Virus record (IMG/VR): IMGVR_UViG_3300040810_000371
Location: 1-26,423 of that record
DNA from: a virus
Strand: one strand, 5' to 3'
DNA length: 26,423 nucleotides
Shown: positions 7,629-26,412 of the stretch, one piece after another
Layout of the letters: each line of letters opens with the position of its first letter
Numbering within the stretch: position 1 is the stretch's first letter
The notes under the pieces: generated by a model
What the model saw: the letters and a program-made list of their open reading frames with translations, nothing else
Databases searched by the model: none
What the model was told of the DNA's origin: nothing
Translations under genes and position numbers: made by a program

Positions 7629-7641
7629 TCCTATTTCAGAA

Positions 7642-8088: not shown

Positions 8089-8100
8089 TTTATTTTTCTC

Positions 8101-9009: not shown

Positions 9010-9011
9010 TG

Positions 9012-10562: not shown

Positions 10563-10626
10563 TTTGCTTATCTCCTATATTTACTTTGGAAAGGGTTCAG
10601 CTAGAATTTTCTGCTTTACCTGTTTC

Positions 10627-11073
10627 CTAATATCGTACTTCAACTACCATTTCGCCTATGCCTAAAGGAGATATAACTCCCTCATCTGTACCTATCGATT
10701 GAATAGTTATAGATGTTGTTTGTAGGTTTGGCGATACAGTATCGTCATACACTAGTATGTCATTATCATCGATTACTCTTTCGATATCTTCGAGTAATAA
10801 CGACAAAATTTCTTGAGGGTCATTTGCATCTTCTACATATGCCCTGATTGTTACTGTTAAAAATCTCCATTTAAATCCTCCAGGCTGATATTGTCGTATT
10901 TCATCGCCTGCTACAACACATACTTTTGGGTATTGTTGTATTTCATCTAAAAATACTAAATGTGAGTCAGCATTTTGAAAGATGTTTGAATTAAAAGGAT
11001 GATTCCCATCAATTTCTTTAAATTTGTTAACAAGAGCTTCGGCTATTTTTTTTCTTTGTGTTCTGTATGCCAT
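10627..11073 (-). CDS. Tail terminator (gpU-like) protein
   Basis: The product is 148 aa: an N-terminal helix (QRKKIAEALVNKFKEIDG), then alternating strands (HLVFLDEIQQYPKVCVVAGD, RFLTVTIRAYVED), a helix (PQEILSLLLEDIERVIDD) and a final strand pair ending MVVEVRY. This is the order of the small alpha/beta tail terminator fold (lambda gpU, and DUF3168-like proteins) that caps the tube where it meets the head. It lies directly before the tube genes and after the 465-aa neck candidate, which is the expected place. Its ATG overlaps the upstream stop as TAATG. The 64 bases between its stop and the tube gene contain only the tube gene's ribosome site. Confidence 0.75.
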   Translation of the reverse strand: MAYRTQRKKIAEALVNKFKEIDGNHPFNSNIFQNADSHLVFLDEIQQYPKVCVVAGDEIRQYQPGGFKWRFLTVTIRAYVEDANDPQEILSLLLEDIERVIDDNDILVYDDTVSPNLQTTSITIQSIGTDEGVISPLGIGEMVVEVRY

Positions 11074-12470
11074 TATACTCTCCTAAGTGTAAATTTTTTC
11101 TCGGTATACTTCAATGCTAGATTTCTTATGCTTTTAGCTATTAAAGGTTTTGGATTATATCCCGAAGGCCATTGTTTGCTACCTAAATTTTCAAAAGTTG
11201 AGTAAACTCCTCTTTTATTTTTACTTTGTCCCCCGCCTGTTAAAGTATAAGTATATTCACCTGTTAATGTTTTTCCTGTATCTCTTAAACTTAAAAGTCT
11301 AGCGCTATTTGAAAATTGTCCTGTTCTATTTATTAGTGCAGGTCTTCCCATGTTTCTTCTAACTTCTGCACCTAAACTTCTATTAATATTATATTTAATT
11401 TTATTAAGAGAAAGAGCTTCATCATCAGTTGATTTACCTATAGAAGCGGTTGTTAGTATTTTATTTTGAGCTTCTAATTGTTTTGCAATTACAGTAGCTC
11501 CTGTTCCAACTTTTCTTGCTTTAGTAGTTATTTTTTGAGTATCAACAGATGTTTTTACTCTTGTTTTTCCTTTAGTTGTTTTTTTATAAGTTCTTTTCTT
11601 TTTACCTACTCCAGCTTCTACTAACTGCTCTCCTAATTCTTTTCCAATGCTTTTAGACCCTGTAATACTAGTAATGTCTGCTTCGCCTAGTGCTTTCGCT
11701 AAGTCGGAGGTCATTCCTTGAGCAGTTCCAGATACTAAAGCTTTTCTCATTGCTCCTAGTGTTTTCTGTTTAACTCCTTTGATATCTTTGTTTAAGTCTT
11801 CTGTTTCAATTTGATATCTTGCAAGAGTTCCATCATTTAATTTTAAGTCTAATTGTTTTAAGTGGCTTATATCTATGTGGCCATCTTTTTTCATATTCTT
11901 TAATTTAGCAACTATTTGTTTATTTTCTAAATCATTTTTCTTTTCTGCTTGAGAAATAACATGCCCTACAGCTCTTAATTTTCTTAGTCTTTCAGCTGTT
12001 ATTTGTTGTTTTCTGTAGAAAACTGTATTTGCTTCTCCTTTTGCTTCTAATTCTAATAATCCGCTTTGTATTGCCATTATTGTTAAAGAAATAGAAACAT
12101 TAATAGGCTCCATTGTTTTATGTCCTATATTCCACTGCGTAGGTAGTGCAGACCCTGCTCTTTTTAAATGTCCTGCTAATTGGGCTAATGCAGAACTTAG
12201 TTGTTTTTGGGTTGCTTCTCCTGTTAGCCTTTTATATGCTTTCATTACTTCAGGGTCATTACTTAATCCTGTTGCAGCAAGAGAGTCATTTAACTCTCTA
12301 AAAAATCCTTCACTTCCTTCTAACCTACCTAGTTGAACATTTCTAAGTTGTTTTCCTAAATCTGTTGCAGTTTTTCCTATATTTTTTGCTTGTTCCTGGA
12401 CTAGTTTTTCATAACTTATTCCAGTATTTTTATCTCTAGATAAGTACTTGAACTTAAATTTATCTGCCAT
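11073..12470 (-). CDS. Neck or tail-completion candidate, 465 aa
   Basis: I do not recognise this gene. The product is 465 aa and strongly basic in the middle (GVGKKKRTYKKTTKGKTRVK near aa 290-310). The N-terminal two thirds is helical and Lys/Gln-rich, and the last ~90 aa look folded, with RNMGRPALINRTGQFSNSARL and YSTFENLGSKQWPSGYNPKP. The C-terminal part could correspond to the small neck protein (HK97 gp10-like) usually encoded between adaptor and tail terminator, which has a similar 'RTGxFxxS' flavour, here with a long extra N-terminal helical part. It shares a TAATG with the genes on both sides. An internal scaffold or injected protein is an alternative because of the basic linker. Confidence 0.45.
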   Translation of the reverse strand: MADKFKFKYLSRDKNTGISYEKLVQEQAKNIGKTATDLGKQLRNVQLGRLEGSEGFFRELNDSLAATGLSNDPEVMKAYKRLTGEATQKQLSSALAQLAGHLKRAGSALPTQWNIGHKTMEPINVSISLTIMAIQSGLLELEAKGEANTVFYRKQQITAERLRKLRAVGHVISQAEKKNDLENKQIVAKLKNMKKDGHIDISHLKQLDLKLNDGTLARYQIETEDLNKDIKGVKQKTLGAMRKALVSGTAQGMTSDLAKALGEADITSITGSKSIGKELGEQLVEAGVGKKKRTYKKTTKGKTRVKTSVDTQKITTKARKVGTGATVIAKQLEAQNKILTTASIGKSTDDEALSLNKIKYNINRSLGAEVRRNMGRPALINRTGQFSNSARLLSLRDTGKTLTGEYTYTLTGGGQSKNKRGVYSTFENLGSKQWPSGYNPKPLIAKSIRNLALKYTEKKFTLRRV

Positions 12471-13081
12471 TACTTATGAATTTTATAAAAATCCAATATA
12501 CGTTTAATATGGTCAGGAAAACCTATGTTTTCTCTCAAACTTGTTGATACAGGATTTTGTATCTGTGCACCTGAAATGGTTAAGTTTTGTTTTCTTTCGT
12601 CTTTTAAATAGTACTTAACTAAATCAAAACATGCTAGTTTTAAATCTTCCGGTGTTGCTGAATATCCTGACTTGTATACTACTTTTACTGCTTTTCTTCC
12701 TTGTGGAAACATTTTGTCTCCTGTTGCAGTAGTTCTAAATATAGTATCTGCATTATAATCTACTACGTAGTCATACTTTCCGCTTGAGTCTGAATTTTCA
12801 AATATTAGAGTCGTATATGAGTCTGATTGATTCTTTCTTTCTTCAACTGAAGTCACGCTCACGATTGGACTCTCATCGAGTATTATTGCATTAGTGTATT
12901 TATCCTTAATATCGTAATATTCGGTCTTGTCACTAGAATAATAGTCTATAAAACTTGTGCCGCAATATGTTTTTACTGCTTGGCTGATAGCAGGTATGAT
13001 GACATTAATCTTCGCATTCTCACTTTCTCCAGTAAGTCCAGCGAAGTTTTTGTATTCTCTTAATGTTATTAAATCTGCCAT
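12470..13081 (-). CDS. Head-tail adaptor (gp6-like connector) protein
   Basis: The product is 203 aa. It begins with ADLITLREYKNFAGLTGESE, followed by helices (INVIIPAISQAVKTYCG), then a beta region with 'ILDESPIVSVTSVEE' and 'VKVVYKSGYSATPEDLKLAC', and ends with 'LVKYYLKDERK'. This is the standard arrangement of HK97 gp6/SPP1 gp15-type adaptors, which sit under the portal: an N-terminal helical bundle, the 'P(I/V)xSVxSV' strand, then 'GY...TPxDLKxAxxxLVxYY'. Gene order agrees. The ATG has no visible ribosome site. The bases before it are the U-tract of an intrinsic terminator, so translation probably depends on coupling, a weak leader, or read-through transcripts. Confidence 0.85.
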   Translation of the reverse strand: MADLITLREYKNFAGLTGESENAKINVIIPAISQAVKTYCGTSFIDYYSSDKTEYYDIKDKYTNAIILDESPIVSVTSVEERKNQSDSYTTLIFENSDSSGKYDYVVDYNADTIFRTTATGDKMFPQGRKAVKVVYKSGYSATPEDLKLACFDLVKYYLKDERKQNLTISGAQIQNPVSTSLRENIGFPDHIKRILDFYKIHK

Positions 13082-13114
13082 AATTAAAAAGAGGGAGTGT
13101 TAGGTACACTCCCT
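13082..13114 (-). terminator. Intrinsic terminator after the capsid gene
   Basis: On the minus strand AGGGAGTGT, a five-base loop ACCTA, then ACACTCCCT forms a perfect nine-base-pair stem. It is followed by CTTTTTAATTA. The stem is GC-rich compared with the surrounding DNA. It lies 28 bases beyond the capsid stop and ends at the base before the adaptor's ATG. It would stop most transcripts after the head genes, giving more capsid than tail mRNA. Confidence 0.85.
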
Positions 13115-13141
13115 GAAACCTTTAGCTTGTTAAGGTTAACC

Positions 13142-15181
13142 TTATGAAGCTTTATACATCCAAGCCCACTTAGAAGTAGCACCGTCAATTAAGTCGATAA
13201 ATCCTAATCTTTGAGAAGCCACTAAGACTCTTCTTTGATTAATTACTTCGTAGTCTGATTCTACTGTTACGCCTCTTAATCTTGGCATTACGTAGTTTCT
13301 TGGGTTAACAGCGATAGCTGCGAACTTAGATACTGCTGGTGTAGCGAATTCATCACAAAGAAGAACTCTTGAACCGAACACTTGTCCGATTTCACCAGAT
13401 AACTTAGTTGCCATGTCGCCAACTAGGTTAGCATCTTGGAACTCAGCATCTTCTAATAGTTCGTAGTATGATCTTTGTGAAACAATGTATACTACTTCAC
13501 TTGGGTTCACACCATATTTACCCATATTCTTTCTCATTTCAAGTAAGTCAGTTGCTACAATTTTATCAGTTGCAAAAGCAGTTGCTGATTGTGTGTAGTC
13601 ACTGTCATTTCTTGCTAAGTGTAGTAAACCTTCAAAAGAAGCTCCAGCTGTACCGAATACGCCGTCAGCATCATCACCAGCTAGGATTGAGTTTTCAATT
13701 GCTCTAGCATGTGACCTTACCATTGATTCTCTAATTAAAGGAAGGATCGGTAAGATTGCATCTTCTTCAGTTTCATTACCTAAGAATGACTGAGAAATAA
13801 GTTTCTTAGTTGAAAGAGTTCTTTCAGACATACTAACCCCTGCATCAGCACCATAAGCAGCAGACCTCATATCTAAGTTGTCATTTGCTACAGCAGAACC
13901 TGAAGTAAATTCAGCATAACCACTGTCTGGTAAGATTGGGATAATCATGTTTGCAGAAGTCATTGCTACTTCTCTGAATAGAGGAGCTAAGACTAATTCA
14001 TTTTGAATATCTCTTTCGATGTTAGTTGAAACGATTTGCTCGAAATCAGCTGATGAAACTTGAACACCTGAATGAGTGTTAACTTTTTCCATCACATTTT
14101 TAGCAACTTCACTGTCCCATCCTTTACCAGTAGCTAAACCAGCAAATTTTGCGTCAACGATATCTTGCTCAAAAGTTTTTTTCCAATCGCCTTGACCTTG
14201 TCTGTCTGAGAAGTGTCTTTTTGACTCTCTCATTTTTACGATTTCTTCTGATTTCTCAGCTAGTTCTGACTCAAGTCCTTTAACAACTGACTCTAAATTA
14301 GAGTAGTCTTCTTTAACTCTAGACTCAACATCATTCATAAGCTTTTCAGCTCCTGATAGACCTGCTTCAACTATAGTTTTAGTTTTTTCCTGATCTGCTA
14401 CTTCAGCAGCTTTTTGAACTTCGGCGTCGTTAGTTGCTTTTTGAGCAGCTTCGTCTGCAGCCTTCTGTTCAGCAGCTTTTTGTTCAGCTTGTTTCATTGC
14501 AATTTCAGCAGCTGTATCTGCAGCTACCTTTCTTGCAAACTCTTCAAGATTGAACTCTGAGTTGCTTTCAGGAGATTTATTTTCTTTTGACATATTTGTC
14601 TCCATGTTTTGGGATTCCTCCCGTCCTGGCTGCTCAACATTAACAGCGTCTGCTGATTCTGCTGGGTTAGCCTTATAAAAAGTTTGCTTATACTTGTTGT
14701 ATTCTTCCATACTATCAAATGATTTGCTCAATCCAAAAGTTGCCCCTTGGTTGCAAGGCACTGATACTACTGAAACTTCAAAAAGCTCCGCGTCCTTTAT
14801 CTTGTATCCGTCAGTTTCTGTCATATAATCCGCATCCTTGACTTTGAAACCAACAGAAAAAGCTCCAAGGACACCGTCTTTAATTAATTGAGTTACATCA
14901 CCTGCAGCTTTAGATATCTTTGCAGATATCTCTAAACCGTTTTCTGTAACTTGTAAATCTTTTGCACGACCAATAGGTTTGTCGTAATTGTGATTAAACA
15001 AAATAATTGGATTATTTTTAAAATTCTCTAATCCACCTTTTGTCCATGCGCCGCTTTCAATAATATCTCCAGCTCTATCAAGTCCATTAGTGCTTGCAGA
15101 GCCTTTAATATCAACGCCACCGTCTTCTGATTCACCGATTGCTTTAAAAGTGCTAGTCCAATGATAAATCTTATTTGCCAT
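13142..15181 (-). CDS. Fused prohead protease - scaffold - HK97-fold major capsid protein
   Basis: The product is 679 aa in three parts. Residues 1-150 match the U35 prohead protease family: IILFNHNYDKPIGRA with His64, GAFSVGFKV with Ser109, and the following LFEVSVVSVPCN. Residues about 195-320 are an Ala/Glu/Lys-rich coiled coil, the place of the HK97 delta/scaffold domain. Residues about 325-679 are the HK97-fold capsid: REVAMTSANMIIPILPD, SERTLSTKKLISQSFLG, a RSHARAIENSILAGDD spine helix, and FAAIAVNPRNYVMPRLRG near the end. In most phages protease and capsid are separate genes, so the fusion is notable but not unique. Two internal ATGs at codons 193 and 197, with an upstream GGGAGG, could yield a protease-free scaffold-capsid chain. 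Maturation cleavage near aa 320 is expected. The start overlaps the 88-aa gene by 11 bases, and a strong terminator follows. Confidence 0.93.
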   Translation of the reverse strand: MANKIYHWTSTFKAIGESEDGGVDIKGSASTNGLDRAGDIIESGAWTKGGLENFKNNPIILFNHNYDKPIGRAKDLQVTENGLEISAKISKAAGDVTQLIKDGVLGAFSVGFKVKDADYMTETDGYKIKDAELFEVSVVSVPCNQGATFGLSKSFDSMEEYNKYKQTFYKANPAESADAVNVEQPGREESQNMETNMSKENKSPESNSEFNLEEFARKVAADTAAEIAMKQAEQKAAEQKAADEAAQKATNDAEVQKAAEVADQEKTKTIVEAGLSGAEKLMNDVESRVKEDYSNLESVVKGLESELAEKSEEIVKMRESKRHFSDRQGQGDWKKTFEQDIVDAKFAGLATGKGWDSEVAKNVMEKVNTHSGVQVSSADFEQIVSTNIERDIQNELVLAPLFREVAMTSANMIIPILPDSGYAEFTSGSAVANDNLDMRSAAYGADAGVSMSERTLSTKKLISQSFLGNETEEDAILPILPLIRESMVRSHARAIENSILAGDDADGVFGTAGASFEGLLHLARNDSDYTQSATAFATDKIVATDLLEMRKNMGKYGVNPSEVVYIVSQRSYYELLEDAEFQDANLVGDMATKLSGEIGQVFGSRVLLCDEFATPAVSKFAAIAVNPRNYVMPRLRGVTVESDYEVINQRRVLVASQRLGFIDLIDGATSKWAWMYKAS
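14593..14622 (-). promoter_or_regulatory. Possible internal ribosome site for protease-free capsid
   Basis: Within the fused gene, the minus strand reads GGGAGG (14617-14622) and then ATG at 14605 (codon 193) and ATG at 14593 (codon 197). The spacing to the first ATG is 11 bases, longer than ideal but usable. Both codons lie precisely at the junction between the protease domain and the coiled coil, where a separate capsid gene would begin. A short product starting here would be about 487 aa. This is a suggestion from position; nothing in the sequence proves that it is used. Confidence 0.4.
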
Positions 15182-15437
15182 CTTTCTTCTCCACTTTTTT
15201 CTTAGCAGGTGCTTTCTTTTCGACAGGTGCTTCTTTAACTTCTGGTGCAGCTACTTCTACAGGATATCTTTTTGATACCACGCTGAGTACTCTACTCCAA
15301 GAACCAAATGCTCTTCTTAATAAATAATCCTTAACAGGAACATCATTTCCTTTTGCTTTATAAGCAGGCAAATCTATAGGACCGCCTTCTGCTTTAAAGT
15401 AATTGGAAAGAGCTTTTACCATCATATCTTTTGTCAT
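15171..15437 (-). CDS. Small protein with HNH-associated-repeat-like fold, basic tail
   Basis: The product is 88 aa. Residues 5-60 contain 'LPAYKAKGNDVPVKDYLLRRAFGSWSRVLSVV', which I read as a helix-turn-helix of the kind found as a homing-endonuclease-associated repeat: a '...xYxxxG...P...xxRRxFGSWxxxL' pattern. The last 25 residues are a low-complexity Ala/Pro/Lys/Glu tail. Alone and without a nuclease domain, it could bind DNA or serve as a small head-assembly factor. It lies between portal and capsid genes, with two bases to the portal stop and an 11-base overlap with the capsid start. In many phages this slot holds the protease, which here is already fused to the capsid. The resemblance is by eye and its role is unknown. 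Confidence 0.5.
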   Translation of the reverse strand: MTKDMMVKALSNYFKAEGGPIDLPAYKAKGNDVPVKDYLLRRAFGSWSRVLSVVSKRYPVEVAAPEVKEAPVEKKAPAKKKVEKKDGK

Positions 15438-15439
15438 AA

Positions 15440-16657
15440 TTATTCTTCCTCGCTTGGGGCAGCCTCTGAAGGTCTACCTCCTTGTTCTGGATTTACCGCA
15501 GAACCCGCTATATTAGCAGGTACTCTTGGTTCATCAAATCCATCCACAGGGTCTTTGCCTAAGGCCTCTCTAGCTTCGTTGGCACTCAATATGCCTGTGT
15601 TTACTAAAGTTGCGTAATAAGCTGCTTGGTCTCTTAACTCTGGTTGTAAAGCAGGAATACCTGTTACATCTTCAGATAGTGAAAAACCAAAAAATCTTTC
15701 TAGTGCGTATCCTACTTTTTTGACTATCGGTAAAACAGTCTCTAAGTAATATAGTCTATGGTTAGGTCTTATGTTTGCGTTATTGCCTCCATCCATTAAA
15801 ATTGGTGGTATTCCCATAGCTTCTAGAATAATTCTTTCATTTGCTTTTATGGACTCTGCAAAATCTAGTTCTTTAAAATTTATCTTTGTTAAAGGGTCAA
15901 CTTCTAACCCTCCGTCTAATATTAGAGGTCTTCTACCTCCAGTATTTGGATTATATCGAATACTCCAAGCCTGCATCATTCTTTCTTTTACTTTCTCAGA
16001 AAGAGTATTTGGTGACTTTAGTACTAATCCTGGAACTGCTCCATTCTTAAAAAAGTTATCTTGAAAATTTCTCATGCTACCAAGTAGTTGCATAGTTCTG
16101 TAAGCTGGTTTTAGCCTTGGAACTCCCCTGTAAATTGAATTGAAACTATTTTCTTTTATGTGTATAATTTCATCAGGGCTGTAATCTATTGAGTTATCAT
16201 ATGAATATCTTTCTACGTATGTTTTGTCATCAGTATGGATTGTTACTTTATCTGCTGGTAAATGATAGAGATGAGCTCCATCAAAGTAAATAAAGATGTT
16301 TCCATCTATAAGTAAGTCAATTATTAAATTTCTTTTAAAAGCACTAACATCTTGAAAAGGGTTAGGCTCAATATTTAGTAGTAAATTTACTTTTGACCTA
16401 CGAATATTTTTAAGAACGCTAGTAGTACCTACGAACTTTTCTCCTACAGCAAAGGGTATTTCGGAAACGTCATCAACAATCATATTGACTGCTCTATTAA
16501 CGATTTCTAACTGTTCATAGGCATTTCTGTAGTTAGTAATTATTTCCCTTGAGTCAATAGTCATACCCTCATTTCGGGATATTACATATTGAGCAGGATT
16601 CAATTTTTCATCGTCCACTACTGGAGTTCTGCCTAATAATCTATCATACCATGCCAT
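15440..16657 (-). CDS. Portal protein, HK97 family
   Basis: The product is 405 aa. It shows the recognisable features of HK97-type portals: an N-terminal helix rich in contacts (NYRNAYEQLEIVNRAVNMI), the 'LLNIEPNPFQDVSAFKRNLI' clip region with a 'LIDGNIFIYFDG' strand, 'IHIKENSFNSIYRGVPRLK' followed by the stem helices, 'FFKNGAVPGLVLKSPNTLSE', and the C-terminal 'LNTGILSANEAREALGKDP'-like pattern (TGILSANEAREALGKDPVDG). The portal forms the dodecameric ring at one capsid vertex through which the terminase pumps DNA. Length fits the family. The start overlaps the HNH gene by 14 bases. The C-terminus after GKDPVDG is a short disordered Pro/Glu tail, as in relatives. Confidence 0.95.
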   Translation of the reverse strand: MAWYDRLLGRTPVVDDEKLNPAQYVISRNEGMTIDSREIITNYRNAYEQLEIVNRAVNMIVDDVSEIPFAVGEKFVGTTSVLKNIRRSKVNLLLNIEPNPFQDVSAFKRNLIIDLLIDGNIFIYFDGAHLYHLPADKVTIHTDDKTYVERYSYDNSIDYSPDEIIHIKENSFNSIYRGVPRLKPAYRTMQLLGSMRNFQDNFFKNGAVPGLVLKSPNTLSEKVKERMMQAWSIRYNPNTGGRRPLILDGGLEVDPLTKINFKELDFAESIKANERIILEAMGIPPILMDGGNNANIRPNHRLYYLETVLPIVKKVGYALERFFGFSLSEDVTGIPALQPELRDQAAYYATLVNTGILSANEAREALGKDPVDGFDEPRVPANIAGSAVNPEQGGRPSEAAPSEEE

Positions 16658-17015
16658 ATTTGTCTCTCTGCTTCTCGACCCATCTTTTTTGTTTCTCTGC
16701 GTGTATCAACTTGGGTCGTTTTCCATAAATTGAATGTAATTTCATATGGTGACTGTGGCAGAGTGTTACAGTATCCTCGTAAAGTTCTTTGTAGTGTTCA
16801 TCAATAAAGGCTTGTCGAATCTCTAGTATTTCTTGCTCGTTTTCAATAATTAATTTTTTCTTTTTTATCCAAGTTTCTAGTAGTTCTGTAAGCCCGTGAT
16901 AGTGATGAAAATCTAACTGTTCGGTACTTCCACAGATATAACAATCGCTTGATTTTTTATATTGTGATTTCGCTTTATCTCGTACGTATTTAACTAAATC
17001 TCTTTTGAAATTCAT
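16644..17015 (-). CDS. HNH endonuclease next to terminase
   Basis: The product is about 123 aa from the ATG at 17015; a TTG 42 bases upstream is in frame but lies across the promoter, so I reject it as the start. Two zinc pairs are visible: CYICG near the N-terminus, and CHSHHMKLHS near the C-terminus. The central 'LDFHHYHGL' supplies the HNH first-strand histidines, and the final HxxxLH matches the second part of the beta-beta-alpha metal finger. HNH proteins beside terminase are known in cos-type phages such as HK97 (gp74), where they assist DNA maturation; selfish homing is the alternative. Its promoter is the strongest seen here, with a 13-base leader. It overlaps the portal by 14 bases, so HNH, portal, 88-aa protein and capsid form one transcript. 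Confidence 0.85.
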   Translation of the reverse strand: MNFKRDLVKYVRDKAKSQYKKSSDCYICGSTEQLDFHHYHGLTELLETWIKKKKLIIENEQEILEIRQAFIDEHYKELYEDTVTLCHSHHMKLHSIYGKRPKLIHAEKQKRWVEKQRDKYGMV

Positions 17016-17034
17016 ATTTCTACTCTTAATTAGA

Positions 17035-17064
17035 ATTATACCAAAAACATACAGCAAATGTCAA
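17035..17064 (-). promoter_or_regulatory. Consensus sigma70-type promoter for the head operon
   Basis: On the minus strand TTGACA (17059-17064), an 18-base spacer, and TATAAT (17035-17040) are both perfect matches to the consensus. The -10 is embedded in TTTTTGGTATAATT, shared with the second promoter at 21613. The expected start is about 17028, giving a very short leader before the HNH ATG at 17015. It lies in the only gap between the large terminase and the HNH gene. Confidence 0.88.
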
Positions 17065-17086
17065 GAACTGTTTTTTGTAGGTGTTA

Positions 17087-18388
17087 TTAAAACGTTGTGG
17101 CTGTAGTTTCAAATGTATATAACGCATATCGCATAGCATCAGCCATATGGGATGCCATATTATGCTTTGGTTTCTCTTTTAATAAATTAGGGTTTGGGTC
17201 CCATTGATATTGGTCTAGTGATATTAAGGCTTCTTTGCAAGTCTGATTAACAATAAGTTCATCATTATCAACTACTGTTGCAACATGTCCTATACCATCA
17301 AGTACTGATTTTTTAGCATTGATAGTACTAATATCGTAATTTTGTGCGAAGTCGTATCTTGTTTGTTGAGCTGCAGAGTCAATGTAAATGTAATCAATGT
17401 CCCATTTATGAATTAATTTTTGAATCTTCATTGCGTGGTGTTCTGTAGTCTTCTCCGCATCCATATATTCATCTATTAGATAATATTTTCTTTTATCCCA
17501 GTCGTAAGCAATTACACAAAATGCTGTAGGGTCTTTGTAACCTACGTCAAGACCCGCAAAAACATCCATCTGACTAACATCAAGTTGTGATAAATCTGCT
17601 ATACATTCTTCATGGTTAAATGCCCAGACTTGGCCTTCATAGACATTAAAGTCTGCTAAGTACTCTTGTGCAAATTCATTCTCAGACATTGTTTTCTTTG
17701 CTTCAATAATATCTGATTCTGCTACACGAGGATTTTCATGATAAGTTGCTTTTACTGAACACCACTCTGGAAACTCCTCACTAAAACCTCTGTAGTAAAA
17801 CTCAGCAAAGTAATTATTTCTACCCCTTGGAGTAGATATAAAGATTGCTTTTGAGTTTTCTTTGTCTAGTGTGGGCCTGAGCGCAACATTGAAAGCATCC
17901 CTCCCGTCTGTGAGAGCGGCCTCGTCGAATATGATGAGATCGTATGACCTACCCACAACCGAATCAACTTGGTTAATGGAGCCCATACGAATTGTAGAAT
18001 TGTTTGAAAGTTCAATAACTTTATCTTTTGCATTGTCTCTAAGTACCTCTAAATCAAAATGTTTAATAAGATTTCTTTGCAAATCAAATGAGATTTGCGA
18101 TAATGAATAGTTAGGTGACATTAATAGTACATGACTGTTTGGTACTAAACAAACCAGTTGTCCTATTATATTTGAAATGTAAGTTTTGCCCTGACGACGA
18201 GATATAGCCGCACAAACGAATCTATATTTGGGATTATTAACAGCATTTATAATTGCTTTTTGGGATGAGTTAGGTTCTATACCTAACAGTTCAAGATACT
18301 CCATTATGGGTAGTTTAATGAAACGACTCTCAGGACTTAAGTCCATAAGATAGTCGCCTAGTATATCTGTACGGCTAATTTCTATCAA
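17087..18388 (-). CDS. terL: Terminase large subunit
   Basis: The product is 433 aa with ATPase and nuclease parts. ATPase motifs are SRRQGKT (aa 63-69, Walker A with the Arg-rich variant typical of terminases), LIIFDEAA (aa 151-158, Walker B with the catalytic Glu) and STPRG (aa 185-189, coupling motif). The nuclease acidic residues are in GLDVGYKDP (Asp281), IYIDSAA (Asp337) and HMADAMRYA (Asp417). All are intact, so it should pump and cut DNA at the portal. The usual start is TTG at 18388, overlapping the upstream stop (TTGA). An ATG at 18346 (codon 15) is an alternative with an AGG about ten bases upstream. The TTG is preferred because it keeps coupling with the 75-aa gene. Length fits short TerL proteins of HK97-headed phages. 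Confidence 0.96.
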   Translation of the reverse strand: MIEISRTDILGDYLMDLSPESRFIKLPIMEYLELLGIEPNSSQKAIINAVNNPKYRFVCAAISRRQGKTYISNIIGQLVCLVPNSHVLLMSPNYSLSQISFDLQRNLIKHFDLEVLRDNAKDKVIELSNNSTIRMGSINQVDSVVGRSYDLIIFDEAALTDGRDAFNVALRPTLDKENSKAIFISTPRGRNNYFAEFYYRGFSEEFPEWCSVKATYHENPRVAESDIIEAKKTMSENEFAQEYLADFNVYEGQVWAFNHEECIADLSQLDVSQMDVFAGLDVGYKDPTAFCVIAYDWDKRKYYLIDEYMDAEKTTEHHAMKIQKLIHKWDIDYIYIDSAAQQTRYDFAQNYDISTINAKKSVLDGIGHVATVVDNDELIVNQTCKEALISLDQYQWDPNPNLLKEKPKHNMASHMADAMRYALYTFETTATTF

Positions 18389-18612
18389 TGTATTGTCTCG
18401 TCAGGGAATATATTATCTTCTGAATCTATTAGTAAATCCAGCTCTTTTAGTTTAGTGTAAAGGTAGCAGTAAGTAGCCGATACTGTTTTTATCTTCTTCT
18501 CTGCTGGTGATAAGTCTCTAAATTCTTCTACTTTGATTAAATCTTGTAGCATTTTTCCTGCATGTACTATGCCTTCTTCAAGCCATAGTTTTGTTCCGTT
18601 TGCAGTTGCCAT
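18385..18612 (-). CDS. Candidate terminase small subunit, 75 aa
   Basis: This 75-aa protein sits directly before the large terminase, with a four-base overlap, where the small DNA-recognition subunit is usually encoded. It is largely helical (KLWLEEGIVHAGKMLQDLIK, then ATYCYLYTKLKELDLLIDSE). I see no classic helix-turn-helix DNA-binding motif, and it is shorter than typical TerS proteins (about 100-180 aa). It could be a very reduced TerS with only an oligomerisation core, or an unrelated small protein with TerS encoded elsewhere. Its ATG overlaps the upstream basic-protein stop as TAATG. Assignment is by position only. Confidence 0.35.
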   Translation of the reverse strand: MATANGTKLWLEEGIVHAGKMLQDLIKVEEFRDLSPAEKKIKTVSATYCYLYTKLKELDLLIDSEDNIFPDETIH

Positions 18613-18953
18613 TATCTTCTCCTTTTTAGTCCTAATGTTCTTTTTTGTGATTTAGGCGGACGCTTCTTAGAGCCTCCTTTACCTGCCCAAAACACTTTGT
18701 TTGCCCAGTATGCTGCTGAAGATTTCCCTTTTCTAATGTTTTTAGCATGTCTTGCCTTAAAACTTCTTCTTGCTTCTGGACTGTAGTTATGGCCCATACC
18801 TTGAGCCCCAAATCTTATAATCTTTACTTTACCACCAACTTTTACAGCTACTACGGCTTTTTTGGTTTTATGGTTTGGGGTTCTTTTCGGTTTGTTAAGT
18901 CCGCTAAGACCTGCTCTTTTTAGCCTTGCTTTTTCTGCTGCTGTTAGTGCCAT
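18612..18953 (-). CDS. Basic phage protein, DUF6321-like
   Basis: The product is 113 aa and extremely basic. It opens ALTAAEKARLKRAGLSGLNK PKRTP, then VGGKVKIIRFGAQGM, then ARRSFKARHAKNIRKGKSSA AYWANK, and ends in RRR. I recognise this order (KARLKRAG, IIRFGAQG, SFKARHAKNIxKGKxSAAYWANK) from a small conserved family common in marine phages; I believe it is the DUF6321 type, but the number is from memory. The function is not established. Strong charge and the aromatic AYWANK suggest DNA binding, perhaps in the packaged genome or terminase complex. A ribosome site TAGGG lies about seven bases before the ATG. It is the gene before the TerS candidate and shares a TAATG with it. Confidence 0.65.
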   Translation of the reverse strand: MALTAAEKARLKRAGLSGLNKPKRTPNHKTKKAVVAVKVGGKVKIIRFGAQGMGHNYSPEARRSFKARHAKNIRKGKSSAAYWANKVFWAGKGGSKKRPPKSQKRTLGLKRRR

Positions 18954-19036
18954 CTTTCATCCCTATAAGTAAAGATTTCTTTACTACTTTGTCGAGTCTT
19001 CCCGACTTCATAATTTTATTGATTTGTTTTAAAATA

Positions 19037-19309
19037 CTATCTTCTTCTCCTTCTCGTCAATAAAGTAGAAGGTGTTTTCTTTCCAAACTTTGCTCTTTTA
19101 GGGTTGACTGTTTTACCAAATCTTGGCCCTACTGCTTTTGGTGCTGCACCATAAAATCCACCTGGTGTGGACATTGGTGACTTAGTGTTTACATAAGTTC
19201 CAGCTGCTGCATTTAAATCACGAGTTAAACCTCTTTTTAATACATGCTTTCTTAGCTTGGAAGTTGAGTGGACACTTGGTCCGCTTAAAAATCCGCCTTG
19301 TCTTGCCAT
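19037..19309 (-). CDS. Small basic protein with Arg-tail, 90 aa
   Basis: I do not recognise this protein. It is 90 aa with a strongly positive charge and a low-complexity make-up rich in Gly, Thr, Pro, Lys and Arg, ending TLLTRRRRR. Segments such as KLRKHVLKRGLTRDL and PRFGKTVNPKRAKFG are basic with few hydrophobics, so it is probably disordered without a partner such as DNA or RNA. The stop is 83 bases upstream of the next ORF, and its ATG follows a short gap after the 57-aa gene. It belongs to a series of such proteins here. DNA condensation or terminase/portal accessory function are both possible. Confidence 0.6.
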   Translation of the reverse strand: MARQGGFLSGPSVHSTSKLRKHVLKRGLTRDLNAAAGTYVNTKSPMSTPGGFYGAAPKAVGPRFGKTVNPKRAKFGKKTPSTLLTRRRRR

Positions 19310-19328
19310 TTTTAATTCCTATCTACTC

Positions 19329-19502
19329 TTAACGAGTACTTTGGCTTATTAGCCTATTAATGAGAACCTTATTATTTGGGGTTCTCGGTAAATTTAATAA
19401 CTTTTTTAGTTGGCAGCCATACTCTAATTCTAAGTGAACTGCCGTTTTTAATCTTTGTGATAAATCTAATACTTTTTCAATCTCTTGAGTTAGATTATTC
19501 AT
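19329..19502 (-). CDS. Small helical protein, 57 aa
   Basis: This 57-aa ORF is below the usual length cut-off. It starts MNNLTQEIEKVLDLSQRLKT and ends in a basic segment with ISQSTR. It begins three bases after the stop of the DUF5872-like gene, with a purine-rich AAGAAG upstream. The first ~38 residues form an amphipathic helix (EIEKVLDLSQRLK, HLELEYGCQLKKLLNL), so it may form a small coiled-coil oligomer. I see no known family. The gap between neighbours would otherwise be nearly 200 bases in a tightly packed operon, and this ORF fills it in the right orientation with a clear start. It is probably real, but the function is unknown. Confidence 0.5.
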   Translation of the reverse strand: MNNLTQEIEKVLDLSQRLKTAVHLELEYGCQLKKLLNLPRTPNNKVLINRLISQSTR

Positions 19503-19505
19503 ATT

Positions 19506-19787
19506 TTACTTCTTCTTTCGACGTCTCCGTTTAGTAAAAGTACGTACGTTAGTGGGTCTTCCACCAACGCCTTGAGGTACTGCCCTCTTACGGCGAACTG
19601 CCGACCTTTTCTGAGCTTTGCTCATTGTTCTTGCACGTGCTAAAGGAACACACTTTGGGTATCCTTTTCGTGAAGTTTTTGCAGACTTTCGTCCACAAGG
19701 TTGATATCTACCCTTTTTCTTAGGTCTAGATATATCTACCCATTTTTCTTTAAACCACTTTGATAATCCACCCTTAGGTTTAGCCAT
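19506..19787 (-). CDS. Basic protein, DUF5872-like
   Basis: The product is 93 aa, read from ATG at 19787. A longer reading from 19817 adds ten residues, but 19787 matches the family's first residues, MAKPKGGLSKWFKEKWVDIS, and overlaps the previous stop by eight bases for coupling. It continues RPKKKGRYQPCGRKSAKTSR and GYPKCVPLARARTMSKAQKR. The pattern 'GGLxxWFxExWVDIxRP...G.YxPCGR....GYPKCVP' is one I recall as DUF5872, found in tailed phages and also in large eukaryotic viruses. The function is unknown. Two cysteines (PCGR, PKCVP) are conserved in that pattern and might bind metal or form a disulfide. The end RRRRKKK is almost pure charge. Nucleic-acid binding is likely. Confidence 0.7.
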   Translation of the reverse strand: MAKPKGGLSKWFKEKWVDISRPKKKGRYQPCGRKSAKTSRKGYPKCVPLARARTMSKAQKRSAVRRKRAVPQGVGGRPTNVRTFTKRRRRKKK

Positions 19788-20031
19788 CTTGATGATGGTC
19801 CATCTCTCCATCTGCAATATAGTTTGCAGCAGATACTACTTCATATTCTGAAATTGCTATTTTATTTGTAAACCAAGTAGGTAAATCCGCTTCTGGATTA
19901 TCTAAATGGTCTAAAATCATTTGCGAATGTGAAATTATAGTCTTACAGGATTTAATTACTGATGCGGCATCAGTGTGCCCATCTTTCTGTACTAATACGA
20001 ATTTTCCGTCTTTTAAAAGTTTAGCTTCCAT
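19780..20031 (-). CDS. Conserved small phage protein, 83 aa
   Basis: The product is 83 aa and acidic to neutral, unlike its basic neighbours. The segment SCKTIISHSQMILDHLDN, followed by ADLPTWFTNKIAISEYEVVS and AANYIADGE, fits a recurring phage family pattern of 'helix - xLPxWxxxKIxxAxxYxxxxxxYI'. I have seen this as a C-terminal module in small virion-associated or hypothetical proteins of cyanophages and pelagiphages. Its biochemical role is not known to me. It overlaps the upstream 44-aa gene by 11 bases and the downstream basic protein by eight. Helical structure and the LPTW motif suggest a protein-protein adaptor. Confidence 0.6.
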   Translation of the reverse strand: MEAKLLKDGKFVLVQKDGHTDAASVIKSCKTIISHSQMILDHLDNPEADLPTWFTNKIAISEYEVVSAANYIADGEMDHHQDG

Positions 20032-21644: not shown

Positions 21645-23426
21645 TTATTTTCTGATGGTGTATATTTTAACTGGTTCGGACTTTCCTTTTACCGTCACTT
21701 CGTCGAGGAACTCGTAGTCAAAACCGTCAACTAAACTGTGTTCGGATATGATTAAATCCGCATCATAGTCTTTACAAGAGGACTCTAACCTTGCAGCCAG
21801 ATTAACCGCATCGCCAAGGACACTGTAATCGAAGCGAGTAGTAGAGCCAAAATTCCCAACCACGCAAGGACCTGTATTGATGCCAGCACCTGTATTAATT
21901 TGGTCAAGGCCTTCATTTTTAAGTGTTTCATTTAATTCTCCTAAAGCTACTCTCATTTCAAGGGCGGCTTCTGTAGCTTTTCTCTCTTGTTCTTCCACAT
22001 CAAGCGGAGCATTCCAAAAAGCCATAATACAATCGCCCATGTATTTATCAATTGTACCTTCGTGTTTTAAAATAATTTCAGTCTGGTTGTCAAGAAAACG
22101 ATTAATTAAGCGAGTAAGACCTTGGGGGTCTTTTTGGTATTTTTCAGAAATTGGTGTGAATCCTCGAATATCTGAAAAAAGAAAAGTAAGTCGTTTTGTC
22201 TCCCCACCCAATCTCAGTAATGTTGGGTCGTCCTGTAATTTTTTCACTAAGTCTGGACTTACGTACGTGCCAAATTGTTGTTTAATTTGTAATCGAAGCA
22301 AATATTGCGTAATGAAGTTACGGAAACTTTCAATAGCCCAGAAAGTAAATGCGATAAAAATAGTGCCAGAAACGTCAACCAAGTAAGAAGATTTCCACAT
22401 TTCCAGCGTAAAGTAAATAAGCCCTCCAATAGTTAGTACTAAAACTGGAAGTGAAAGCCATATACGAGATACAGTAATTGAAAGTAATAGTAGAGCTAAA
22501 AGGGCGGCTCCTAACTCTACTGCTACATTCCATGTCGGGATGGACGGACTGTTTCCTTCTATAAGGGAGTGAAGTATATTTGCTTGAAGTTCATGTGGAT
22601 GTACAGCTCCTCGTGCTGTAGGCACGGGGTTAGTTACTCCTTCTGCTGTAACTCCGAAGATAACAAAAGGTGCTGGTATTGGGTTCTCCATATACTCAGC
22701 TGCAGTTTGTCTATGAAACTTTATATTTTGTTGTACCCATATTCTACCATTAGCATCAGTATTTATATTGGGATAGTTTGGTATTCTTATCCACTCTACT
22801 CCAGCTTCATTAGTTTTTATTTGATAGCTTGGGTCGCCTACTGCAACTCTTAACATTTCAAGTGCAAAACTTGGATATAGTTTGTCTTTGCTACCTACGA
22901 CGACGGGCATGCGCCTTACGACGCCGTCTATTTCTGGACTTGAGTTTATTAAGCCTACGCCCTCTGCGTTTAGCTGTAAGATTGATAGTTGTCGTAAAAT
23001 TCCCGGATAGTTCAATAGCCATGGTACTGGATTCTCCCCTAATTGTGCTGTGCCTATATGAGGCCCTGATTCAATAGATTGAGTGGTAGCCGCATAAGCT
23101 AACACCGTTGGTTTCTCAAACATTACTGCTCCTAATTTATAATCATTAGAAGAGTCTCTTAAGTCAGGGTCAGGCATCAATAGTGTAAGACCAGAAACAC
23201 CTTCTGTTCTATCTATCATGCTTGCAAATAAACTTCTTGGCAGAGGATATCCTCCGTAAGCTTCTACTATCTCTTCGTCAAGGTCGACAAGAAGTATATT
23301 TTCATTTTGAATTGTTGGGGATTTTGACATTAAGTAATCGAATGTACTTAATTCAAGTAATTTAAAAGGGTAAGGGTTCCAGATTAGGAGTCCCATTGAA
23401 AGTAGTATTAATATTAATCTAATCAT
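21645..23426 (-). CDS. Membrane CHASE2 - class III adenylate cyclase
   Basis: The product is 593 aa. A short N-terminal membrane anchor (MIRLILILLSMGLLIW) precedes an extracytoplasmic CHASE2 sensor (about aa 25-295; ILLVDLDEEIVEAYGGYPLP and RRMPVVVGSKDKLYPSFALE are typical). Three close transmembrane segments follow (about aa 300-365), then a class III cyclase domain (about aa 410-593). The catalytic set is complete: metal Asp419 (FSDIRGF) and Asp465 (KYMGD), Lys461 for adenine choice, Ser535 at the other adenine position, and Asn542 and Arg546 (NLAARLE) for catalysis. An adenylate cyclase making cAMP is therefore predicted. CHASE2 cyclases next to FecR-domain proteins are common in bacteria, and here they are in a phage. 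There is no clear ribosome site; the start overlaps the upstream stop by eight bases. The ligand is unknown. Confidence 0.95.
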   Translation of the reverse strand: MIRLILILLSMGLLIWNPYPFKLLELSTFDYLMSKSPTIQNENILLVDLDEEIVEAYGGYPLPRSLFASMIDRTEGVSGLTLLMPDPDLRDSSNDYKLGAVMFEKPTVLAYAATTQSIESGPHIGTAQLGENPVPWLLNYPGILRQLSILQLNAEGVGLINSSPEIDGVVRRMPVVVGSKDKLYPSFALEMLRVAVGDPSYQIKTNEAGVEWIRIPNYPNINTDANGRIWVQQNIKFHRQTAAEYMENPIPAPFVIFGVTAEGVTNPVPTARGAVHPHELQANILHSLIEGNSPSIPTWNVAVELGAALLALLLLSITVSRIWLSLPVLVLTIGGLIYFTLEMWKSSYLVDVSGTIFIAFTFWAIESFRNFITQYLLRLQIKQQFGTYVSPDLVKKLQDDPTLLRLGGETKRLTFLFSDIRGFTPISEKYQKDPQGLTRLINRFLDNQTEIILKHEGTIDKYMGDCIMAFWNAPLDVEEQERKATEAALEMRVALGELNETLKNEGLDQINTGAGINTGPCVVGNFGSTTRFDYSVLGDAVNLAARLESSCKDYDADLIISEHSLVDGFDYEFLDEVTVKGKSEPVKIYTIRK

Positions 23427-23856
23427 ATTTATTTATTAAGTATAGGTTATTAATTGTTGCTAGAGTTACCAAAAAGTTAATTAAAGATAAGGCTTCATCA
23501 GCGCCAGGAGTATTATCAAATATTCCTAATCTTTCAAGAGTATAAGATACTATAATTTTTTGAGCTAAAAGTTCTTCTATCTCTGGTGTATCATCAAGTA
23601 AAATATTTTGTTCATACAAATTATCTCGATTTTCTAAAGCATAGATTGTTGTGGCTAAATCAAGTGTATTAATTATTACGAAGTACTTGTGTTTTGGATT
23701 TTGAAAATTAAAACTATAGGAGTACTCAACAGCCTCTATCCTAGCTCCATCTTGTTGCATTTGCTCAAAGTCAAAAGGTTCATCAACCAGAAGATTGTTT
23801 GATTGTAATAGTGGAGCTACTGCCAGAATTAATAATAACGTTATATGCTTTGCCAT
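23419..23856 (-). CDS. Exported or membrane protein of unknown function, DUF5658-like
   Basis: The product is 145 aa. It starts with a signal-like stretch (MAKHITLLLILAVAPLLQSN). The central segment FVIINTLDLATTIYALEN, followed by an acidic 'NILLDDTPEIEELLAQKIIV' and a second hydrophobic part (INFLVTLATINNLYLI), resembles the DUF5658 pattern 'xxLNxxDxxxTxxxL...ExNPLL...KxxxxxL'. In that family the central motif is usually inside a membrane protein. The usual 'EANPLL' is NILL here. A role as a partner of FecR or the cyclase is inferred only from its position between them. The start overlaps the FecR end by 74 bases. A start at 23757 would avoid the overlap but lose the signal. Confidence 0.5.
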   Translation of the reverse strand: MAKHITLLLILAVAPLLQSNNLLVDEPFDFEQMQQDGARIEAVEYSYSFNFQNPKHKYFVIINTLDLATTIYALENRDNLYEQNILLDDTPEIEELLAQKIIVSYTLERLGIFDNTPGADEALSLINFLVTLATINNLYLINKYD

Positions 23857-24892
23857 CTTGTTCTATAATTATATTGTACTCGGTTTCGCCATTTAAATCT
23901 AACTGTACAGAGTGTGTAATACTACGTATTAAAGTTATTTTATCTGCGTCACCAAAGGTGGTTATTTGGGTAGAAGAGTCTGTACCATAGTTAGTACCTT
24001 TTATATCTAACTCTGTAAAAAGTTGTTCTCCTACAGTTTTTTGTTCTCTTATCTCAAGAGCGTCTAATTCTTCAATTACTTCGAGTAAGTCTTCGAGAAA
24101 GTTTACATCTAAGTAATCTATATCGAGTTCATCAAAGTATAAGTCATCTTCTGCTAAGTAGTCTTGATTTAATTCGTCAAATTCTAATAAGTCTACATCA
24201 AGTATGCCGCCTGCATTATTTGTACTTGTTTCTTCTTCTCCTGGTAATACTTCTTCTTTTGGAGGAGAAACTATCAACATATTATCAATAATATCTAAAC
24301 TTAAGTCTAATATTACTGGTTTGGTAGGTTGTTGCTCCCATACGCTTGTTACTGTAGATTGAAAAGGTTTACTTAGTATTACTTCTCCCATCGCTGTTGT
24401 GACAGTAATTTCACCTGATGAAATACCAAACTCATCAGGAAGAAGTATAACCAAACTACGACCCAGCTCATCAACAGTAACGGTAAAATCAGTGCCTCGA
24501 ATACCAATTTTAGATGTTGGCGTTTCGATTGAAATATTTTCTTTATTAATTGCACCTATCTTACCTGTTATGAAACGAGCCGTTCCACTTGCAAACTTCA
24601 TAGACATTTGTGACTTACTTGGATTTGGGTCAAAGATTACTTTGTCTATTATTAGTTTGCTATGTTCTGTTAGTCTTACTATTGAATCATCTAAAAATGT
24701 AATGCCTACTCGCCCATTAGCTGTTTGAACATTATCCATTTGTTCAATGTCAAATCCTAAGTCCGTTTCGTAGGGCTTGTCTCTAAGTACTTGCCCTACT
24801 CCACGTTGTTCTGTAATGCTTCCTATATTATCAGCATGTAGTGGTAGACCCACCATCATTCTGAATAACACAAATATTACTATTAGACGCAT
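23783..24892 (-). CDS. Secreted FecR-domain protein with acidic ladder
   Basis: The product is 369 aa from the ATG at 24892; a TTG nine bases upstream is an alternative. Signal peptide: MRLIVIFVLFRMMVGLPLHA. The FecR domain follows (about aa 25-190): NGRVGITFLDDSIVRLTEHS and the hallmark ETPTSKIGIRGTDFTVTVDE. After a Pro/Glu linker comes an Asp/Glu/Leu ladder (about aa 225-290; DVDLLEFDEL, LYFDELDIDY, LEDLLEVIEE). The last ~60 aa are beta-prone and end with EYNIIIEQDGKAYNVI and SSSTITIKQSSG, similar in rhythm to curlin repeats. FecR domains sense or scaffold in the periplasm; free-standing ones often pair with CHASE2 cyclases. It overlaps the curlin gene by 62 bases at its 5' end and the next gene by 74 bases. 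Confidence 0.9.
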   Translation of the reverse strand: MRLIVIFVLFRMMVGLPLHADNIGSITEQRGVGQVLRDKPYETDLGFDIEQMDNVQTANGRVGITFLDDSIVRLTEHSKLIIDKVIFDPNPSKSQMSMKFASGTARFITGKIGAINKENISIETPTSKIGIRGTDFTVTVDELGRSLVILLPDEFGISSGEITVTTAMGEVILSKPFQSTVTSVWEQQPTKPVILDLSLDIIDNMLIVSPPKEEVLPGEEETSTNNAGGILDVDLLEFDELNQDYLAEDDLYFDELDIDYLDVNFLEDLLEVIEELDALEIREQKTVGEQLFTELDIKGTNYGTDSSTQITTFGDADKITLIRSITHSVQLDLNGETEYNIIIEQDGKAYNVIINSGSSSTITIKQSSG

Positions 24893-25547
24893 TACTTTCA
24901 ATTTTTAACCAGTCTGCTGCCAGCGTTGATTGTTGTTTAATCACCGCTGTATTGTTACTACCATCTAAATCTAAATAGAAATATTTGGCGTCACTTGAAC
25001 TAGCTCCATACCCAGATTGGATAAATGTTAAGTCATTACTGTCTCCAAAAATATCCATATACATAGTCGCATAGTCTGCGTCTAAGTCTACTTCTGAATC
25101 GTTACTATCTCCATCAATAATCCAATCGATGTCTAAATAACTTGCTCCTGAGACTTCTGCAATATCAATGTCAGTCATGTTTAAACTACCAGTAATATCA
25201 ATATTTATATCGTTACTATCTGCAGTATTTAAACCTGTAGTATCCATACTAAACTCAAAAGTATTGCTGTCGCCATCAAACTCAAAAAAGCCTATAAGAC
25301 TATTTCCGAATATCCCATCAGTAAGAAACTTATTAGAACTTCCTATTTGGTTGATGTCGAGTGTCATACTTGTACCATTTAATACGGCTGCTGTCATTGT
25401 ACCCGCAACGGCATCTGTATCTCCAATCAAGTTGGTGCTTCCTAATTGCTCTATGTCAATGGATGCATTATTACCTGTTTGGTCAATATAGATTTCATTG
25501 TCTGCGTAAAGACCGATTGATAAAAATAAGGCTATTAAAGCTCTCAT
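24831..25547 (-). CDS. Curlin-like repeat protein, secreted
   Basis: The product is 238 aa with a signal peptide (MRALIALFLSIGLYA, cut before DNE). The rest consists of about eight repeats of the form hydrophobic/polar strand - G-x-x-N - strand: IYIDQTGNNASIDIEQLGST, INQIGSSNKF, FDGDSNTFEF, ITGSLNMTDIDI, IDGDSNDSEVDL, IFGDSNDLTFIQ, LDGSNNTAVIKQ. The rhythm fits CsgA/CsgB-type curlin repeats (xxQxGxxNxAxxxQ), but with many Asp residues (GDSN), which could give Ca binding or control of polymerisation. The end has ICVIQNDGG and a terminal Cys. It follows the CsgG gene by one base with a GGGAG ribosome site, so its export by that CsgG is likely. Whether it forms amyloid is inferred. No CsgE or CsgF is visible here. 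Confidence 0.85.
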   Translation of the reverse strand: MRALIALFLSIGLYADNEIYIDQTGNNASIDIEQLGSTNLIGDTDAVAGTMTAAVLNGTSMTLDINQIGSSNKFLTDGIFGNSLIGFFEFDGDSNTFEFSMDTTGLNTADSNDINIDITGSLNMTDIDIAEVSGASYLDIDWIIDGDSNDSEVDLDADYATMYMDIFGDSNDLTFIQSGYGASSSDAKYFYLDLDGSNNTAVIKQQSTLAADWLKIESNASNSNICVIQNDGGSTTTC

Positions 25548-25548
25548 T

Positions 25549-26412
25549 TCACTCTCCCATATAGTACTTCCAGTACCCTTTCTCTATTCCCTGAGTTACC
25601 AGTTCAACTATTGCCGTTTCAATAGCTGCCTGTACAGCAATGTATTTCGGCTCATTCATGGCGTTGCCACTTTCAGCTTCAATCAAATTATTATCAGCAT
25701 TAAATCTGAAATAATCATTGCTAATTCCCACGGAGAGAATTGCTTTAGATGCAAGGATTTCTATTAAAATTTCTCCTGTACTCACAGAAACCATTCTAAT
25801 TGAAACCACTACTTTATCCTCGCGATATTGTTTGGAGTTTCCTATACCTAAATAGCGGGCTCCTACTCCCCCTGTTAATAAATTGGTATTGTAATCAACG
25901 ATACCCCCTTCGATGATTAAGCCAGCATATAGTAGTGGTAGTTGCTTGTCTTCATCTTCAAATTTTTGTCTTGTTTGTCTTATAAGTTGTCTTTCTTTTG
26001 TAAGATGGTCTAAACCTTTTCTTTCAACAACTTTAAAAAATCCTGATTGTTTAAATGCACGAATTAAATATGCTTCGGGTGCTTGTGTCACTGCACTTGA
26101 AAAGTCTGCTATACCATCTCTGGACTTTCTTTGTCCTGTTAAATCTTCAAACTTATATATTGCCACCACAGGTGTTCTTGCTGGCATAGGTAAATTTTGT
26201 ATGGCTTTTGTTACAGGTTTTTCAATTATAGAATTACCAGAAAAACATTGCGCTTTCCCTATAACACTAACAACATCTTTGTAGTCTCCGTCTGGGTTTG
26301 TTACACAAGGTGACACATAACTGTAATGTGTCCAGTTTGCACAACTAGCCAGTAGGAAAACCGAAGTCGCCAATAGGAATTGTAATTGTGGTCGTTTCAC
26401 CTGTTGCCTCAT
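25549..26412 (-). CDS. csgG: CsgG-like curli secretion lipoprotein
   Basis: The product is 287 aa. Signal peptide with lipobox LASC, so Cys24 is the lipid attachment site. A 45-residue N-terminal part with two more Cys precedes the conserved domain. From VVAIYKFEDLTGQ onwards it follows E. coli CsgG closely: DFSSAVTQAPEAYLIRAFKQ, FFKVVERKGLDHLTKERQLI, LLYAGLIIEGGIVDYNTNLL, TGGVGARYLGIGNSKQY, VSIRMVSVSTGEILIEILAS, and AIETAIVELVTQGIEKGYW. CsgG forms the nonameric outer-membrane pore that exports curlin. The loop before DFSSAV, which forms the pore constriction, has lost the aromatic Tyr and has Asp instead of Asn. The ATG at 26412 appears to overlap an upstream stop (TAATG) at the window edge, so the operon probably extends beyond. 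Confidence 0.95.
   Translation of the reverse strand: MRQQVKRPQLQFLLATSVFLLASCANWTHYSYVSPCVTNPDGDYKDVVSVIGKAQCFSGNSIIEKPVTKAIQNLPMPARTPVVAIYKFEDLTGQRKSRDGIADFSSAVTQAPEAYLIRAFKQSGFFKVVERKGLDHLTKERQLIRQTRQKFEDEDKQLPLLYAGLIIEGGIVDYNTNLLTGGVGARYLGIGNSKQYREDKVVVSIRMVSVSTGEILIEILASKAILSVGISNDYFRFNADNNLIEAESGNAMNEPKYIAVQAAIETAIVELVTQGIEKGYWKYYMGE

Follow-up and report, generated by a model that had tools for sequence, protein, structure and literature searches.

The curlin encoded near one end of the window (the whole stretch of DNA analysed here, 26,423 nucleotides of the IMG/VR record IMGVR_UViG_3300040810_000371) probably supplies the fibre subunit of a curli (type VIII secretion) system encoded by a marine phage, and the acidic faces of this subunit would aid first solubility and then bundling. 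Curli are sticky amyloid fibres that bacteria display on their surface. The protein belongs to a known sort of phage curli cassette, reported previously in pelagimyophages (PMC7029224), in HTVC023P-type podophages, where explicit curli-repeat genes, FecR and a cyclase are present (PMC9599517), and in the phage Melnitz (PMC9004378). To these myo- and podovirus pelagiphages the present analysis adds a T5-like siphovirus lineage and the conservation of the end rungs of the curlin. No report of a siphovirus carrier was found in the literature searched, the coverage of which was partial, and no experiments on any phage curlin were found. The features are collected in Table 1.

Table 1. Features of the curli cassette in the window
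Feature	Position	Strand	Description
CsgG	25549..26412	minus	Outer-membrane curli secretion pore, lipobox LASC; Pfam CsgG 2.7e-47
Curlin	24831..25547	minus	238 aa, ATG start; signal peptide and predicted 8-9 rung acidic beta-solenoid
Signal peptide	25503..25547	minus	MRALIALFLSIGLYA, from sequence
N-terminal rung	25425..25502	minus	Canonical curlin motifs NEIYIDQ-TGNN-ASIDIEQ-LGSTN
GDSN turn 1, aa 92-95	25263..25274	minus	Rung 4, invariant, GDSN in 55/55
GDSN turn 2, aa 146-149	25101..25112	minus	Rung 6, GDSN in 45/55
GDSN turn 3, aa 168-171	25035..25046	minus	Rung 7, GDSN in 17/55, GSSN equally common
C-terminal rung and tail, aa 211-238	24834..24917	minus	Invariant C226 (24870-24872) and C238 (24834-24836)
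Overlap of curlin 3' end and FecR-protein start	24831..24892	minus	62 bases
FecR-domain protein	23783..24892	minus	Secreted; acidic middle, beta-rich C-terminus; Pfam FecR 2.4e-10
145-aa protein	23419..23856	minus	No family match; position of second curlin in HTVC008M and Melnitz
CHASE2 sensor with adenylate/guanylate cyclase	21645..23426	minus	Pfam CHASE2 3.2e-28, Guanylate_cyc 1.2e-19

The curlin and its predicted fold

The identity of the protein as a curlin is supported by a match to Pfam Curlin_rpt (PF07012), which extends over two stretches and scores 21.1 bits against a cut-off of 20.7, and by the predicted fold. At least 595 relatives are present in IMG/VR. Given an alignment of 55 sequences, AlphaFold2 predicts a two-sheet beta-solenoid (mean pLDDT 84.9, pTM 0.82) in which the Asn-ended turns are stacked along one edge, in agreement with the stacked solenoid that a previous sequence-only reading had expected. 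The count of "about eight" strand-turn-strand units given there is corrected by the model to approximately 17 strands, or 8-9 rungs. When the rungs are aligned on their turn glycines, hydrophobic residues are found in nearly all of them at positions -4, +5 and +7, and in the later rungs also at -2. The predicted fold thus consists of strand-arc-strand units with inward hydrophobic residues and without inward acid, as in a curlin.

All of the turns named in the sequence-only reading (GNN at residues 25-27, GSTN at 36-39, GSSN at 69-72, GSNN at 196-199 and GDSN three times) are present, together with an additional GSLN at 120-123. However, GDSN does not take the place of the curlin GxxN turn, as had been supposed, but is an instance of this turn (GxxN/XGXX). 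The mature curlin has seven GxxN, whereas shuffled sequences have a mean of 1.87 (P = 0.00085), and three GDSN were reached in none of 20,000 shuffles. GDSN does recur in the window protein, but across the relatives the first of the three turns alone is invariant. The N-x-psi-x-psi-x-Q motif is clear in the N-terminal rung and partial in rung 3 and in the last rung, and the Gln before the turn is lost in rungs 4-8. Only the first unit has a full Q-x-G pattern strong enough for a nucleotide-level family search, in which the N-terminal rung gave the sole PF07012 match.

The best named viral matches of the model in Foldseek are "Curlin associated" phage proteins with a probability of 1.00, although no E-value reached 0.001. 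Foldseek gave nothing below 0.001 against the PDB, and a curlin profile found no relative among the PDB sequences. The top fold matches found with VIA-align are solenoids of the SufB/SufD type (Z 16-17). The core solenoid of SufB/SufD is alike in its overall two-sheet shape (Z 17 over 207-210 residues), but the identity is approximately 7-9% and a functional relation is not implied. Curlin structures are absent among the fold matches, an absence that excludes nothing.

The signal peptide is the most variable segment of the curlin, having a mean column entropy of 1.61, compared to 0.5-1.05 elsewhere. The N-terminal rung has the lowest entropy, with 10 of its 26 columns invariant. Conservation is higher in the terminal rungs than in the middle of the chain (mean entropy 0.57 versus 0.90, P = 0.001 in a permutation test that ignores column dependence and phylogeny).

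As the middle rungs are without the core Gln, the solenoid could be a stable monomer that does not polymerise. The curlin would then be a capped solenoid acting as a surface decoy, an adhesin or a plug of the CsgG pore, which we consider rather unlikely. The degeneracy of the middle rungs, the conserved, disulfide-ready tail at the C-terminal end, the soluble SufB/SufD-type proteins that are the best PDB fold matches, and the observation that cells infected by Melnitz do not clump (PMC9004378) all speak for such a protein. However, it is the end rungs and not the middle that have the canonical curlin motif and are the most strongly conserved, and degenerate rungs such as these fit the "degenerate" class of curlins known among bacterial CsgA (PMC10192328). 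To the extent that an alignment can indicate it, the stronger conservation of the ends fits end-to-end docking and polymerisation of a fibre subunit.

The Cys pair C226 and C238 is present in all 64 distinct sequences, and a Cys is indeed the very last residue, as had been noted earlier. By strand alternation, C226 faces outward on the last strand, making it plausible that the C-terminal tail is stapled to the last rung by a disulfide. The last 20 codons of the curlin coincide with the beginning of the FecR-protein gene. That this overlap alone gave rise to the last Cys is nevertheless disfavoured. Its codon is TGC in 35 relatives and TGT in 19, a difference that is silent in the curlin while the FecR residue changes between Ala and Val, suggesting that the final Cys is likely selected for itself.

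The curlin resembles CsgA and CsgB of E. coli in its GxxN turns, in the Q-x-G-x-x-N pattern of the first units, in the predicted two-sheet solenoid and in its presumed export by CsgG. It differs from them in its net charge (-33, compared to -4 for CsgA and +5 for CsgB), its Cys pair and its degenerate middle rungs, and it has no N22-like segment, whereas CsgA and CsgB have no Cys, five regular repeats and the N22 targeting segment (PMC10192328).

The cassette and the phage that carries it

In the window CsgG adjoins the curlin. The window ends inside the cassette, before CsgF, which is seen in relatives. The order CsgG-curlin-FecR-cyclase holds in nearly all of the 80 IMG/VR loci that are long enough to show it, and agrees with the order CsgF-CsgG-curlin-FecR-(second curlin)-cyclase of Wittmers 2022 (PMC9599517), except that in the window the 145-aa protein occupies the place of the second curlin. 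Neither CsgE nor CsgC was seen in the parts of the cassette examined. Three alphaproteobacterial curli loci have no obvious FecR or cyclase, as judged from ORF starts alone.

The curli-repeat proteins of pelagiphages (Wittmers 2022, PMC9599517; HTVC008M gp016; Melnitz_101) occupy the same slot between CsgG and the FecR protein, and the window curlin is homologous by profile to those of HTVC008M (2.9e-28) and Melnitz (1.2e-24). However, the pelagiphage cassettes have two curlins and are carried by myo- or podoviruses, whereas the window has a single curlin in a T5-like siphovirus. The Cys pair is C-terminal in the window curlin, which ends in Cys, but is located in a mid loop in curlin 1 of HTVC008M.

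The FecR-domain protein has a signal peptide, and its FecR-domain fold is like the cell-surface signalling domain of PupR (Z 16.3). A weaker fold match is to the adhesin anchoring domain 5ix9 (Z 6.2, 26% identity). For this protein, a secreted role is a better fit than that of an iron-dependent regulator. The C-terminus has a visual likeness to a curlin, but a hidden curlin or nucleator was rejected here, the profile comparison giving a probability of 0.3% over 11 columns.

CsgF is preceded in relatives by membrane or coiled-coil proteins of 84-122 aa, the scanned pair of which belongs to phrog_18771. Examples are situated at positions 4175-4706, 3862-4576 and 4375-4725 of the loci L019, L004 and L062, respectively. 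No kinase domain was found in the scanned pair, and no histidine kinase was encountered preceding the cassette. By position, the published "histidine kinase" before CsgF is probably one of these small proteins, which suggests a doubtful label in print rather than a different cassette. The small proteins could be holin-like.

Their presence before CsgF, and the spanin-like and lysozyme-like genes (named by inspection) that follow the cassette in L062 and L086, lend some support to a cassette that serves chiefly as a pore, for the timing of lysis or for uptake, with a pinholin- or secretin-like CsgG (Buchholz 2022) that the curlin merely gates. This is very unlikely, because the curlin stays beside CsgG throughout. 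Melnitz, moreover, is stated to lack csgA and csgB (PMC9004378), yet this conflicts with its own GenBank record (MZ577097, our locus L135), which annotates two curlin repeat proteins at 2516-3235 and 4294-5310.

The rest of the window is that of a T5-like siphovirus. The terminase is up to 49% identical to those of T5-like Vibrio, Serratia and Klebsiella phages and the major tail protein up to 40% identical to those of T5-like phages; a tape measure and a pb9-like distal tail protein are also encoded. The structural genes that place the phage with the T5-like siphoviruses extend over positions 3-18388. A sheath gene is lacking in six related records. Six related records with terminases 81-84% identical to that of the window carry the cassette. 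A CsgG tree places the T5-like sequences within a single phage clade (MRCA support 0.887), which also holds contigs of untested type.

A cellular origin of the curlin subfamily was considered and set aside. A genome scan gave five loci (L082 to L086). The two that were read in detail, L085 and L086, look like phage contigs binned in MAGs, and L083 and L084 are opposite ends of a single contig. This 60.8-kb contig (PBPT01000002.1), with a curlin at both ends, is binned as Neomarinimicrobiota and is probably a misbinned circular phage genome.

Three very basic small ORFs of 113, 90 and 103 aa (pI 12.0 computed for two of them) are situated at positions 18612-19817 of the window, and several relatives also retain them close to the cassette. 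They are possibly protamine-like or head-packed DNA-binding proteins. A single ORF of 679 aa (13142-15181) matches the profiles of both a head maturation protease and a major head protein, suggesting a fused protease-capsid protein. Residues 652-705 of the tape measure (5191-5352) have a weak PAS-like match (2.9e-4), below the cut-off.

Acidity and calcium

Asp or Glu occupies 23 of the 49 outward strand positions and none of the 49 inward ones, in agreement with the many outward Asp residues noted earlier. Judging from the sequences, acidity is a real trait of the family, since the net charge is between -27 and -37 in 64 of 64 distinct sequences and the curlins of HTVC008M (-26) and Melnitz (-27) are equally acidic. 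Curlin ORFs from alphaproteobacterial genomes have net charges of +8 to -19, apart from a single protein of 609 aa at -61. For the Melnitz CsgGF, a lumen with positive charge has been predicted (PMC9004378); an acidic substrate would be well matched to it.

The acidic "ladder" is interrupted and no more than partial. At the third residue ahead of the turn glycine, 87-100% of sequences have an acid in rungs 1, 4, 5, 7 and 8, but rung 3 has an invariant Asn and rung 6 an Ile or another hydrophobic residue. Rung 4 alone has an invariant Asp inside the turn, and at rungs 7 and 8 the turn Asp is unconserved. Taken singly, the outward columns of the window curlin are in no case more acidic than its outward surface in general (P = 0.81).

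A curlin solenoid with outward-facing ladders of acids is also known from R15.5 of Pontibacter korlensis, which differs in having 15.5 regular, centrosymmetric repeats (PMC10192328). R15.5, with its regular grid of Asp and Glu, forms fibrils in 10 mM EDTA, and 10 mM CaCl2 merely raised fibrillar aggregation (PMC10192328). In that study, neighbouring fibrils are proposed to be bridged by cations, and mineral encrustation was observed at high calcium (PMC10192328). By analogy, this speaks against calcium being required and for bundling with the help of calcium.

A calcium-switch mechanism is unlikely. The sequence-only reading, in which calcium is bound by the Asp ladder and the GDSN turns so that fibre assembly has to await the calcium of the external sea water, is favoured by the high negative charge with every acid outward and on one DGDSN turn (GDSN invariant, Asp or Glu before the turn in 82%) that is possibly a single DxDxN cation site, but is highly improbable in view of the broken ladder, the unconserved turn Asp, the behaviour of R15.5 in EDTA and the lack in the curlin sequence of RTX-type GGxGxD or GGxGxDxUx nonapeptides, the sole GG being in the C-terminal NDGGSTTTC. 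Small ions, furthermore, exchange between the periplasm and sea water through porins, so that sea-water calcium could not mark the "outside" for a periplasmic protein.

A proposed model of the curli fibre

The fibre-subunit reading would imply the following sequence of events. During infection, probably late, the phage would make CsgG, the curlin, the secreted FecR-domain protein and, assuming that the gene order of the relatives continues beyond the window end, an upstream CsgF. The curlin would cross the inner membrane by means of its signal peptide and exit through CsgG, its negative outward faces keeping the chain soluble before secretion. Outside the cell it would fold into the solenoid of 8-9 rungs and stack end to end via the well-conserved terminal rungs, while C226 and C238 would probably form a disulfide stapling the tail. 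In sea water, divalent cations may screen or bridge the acidic faces, causing the fibrils to bundle; calcium would not be required for polymerisation itself.

A benefit to the phage, such as aggregation of siblings or exclusion of rivals, is speculative. It appears quite unlikely, as a broader generalisation, that ocean phages including the T5-like siphoviruses coat infected cells with a fibre of strongly acidic, disulfide-stapled curlin adapted to sea water, the divalent ions of which would bridge fibrils and glue infected cells to uninfected ones.

Phage-encoded curli have been puzzling because the proposed hosts are without the system and because it is disputed whether the phage proteins form fibres. 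The puzzle is narrowed by the findings that the curlin is kept with the pore in nearly every sufficiently long locus, that its end rungs are the most constrained and that a T5-like lineage also carries the cassette. As the cultured carriers HTVC008M and Melnitz both encode curlins, the question of the fibre can be tested at the bench.
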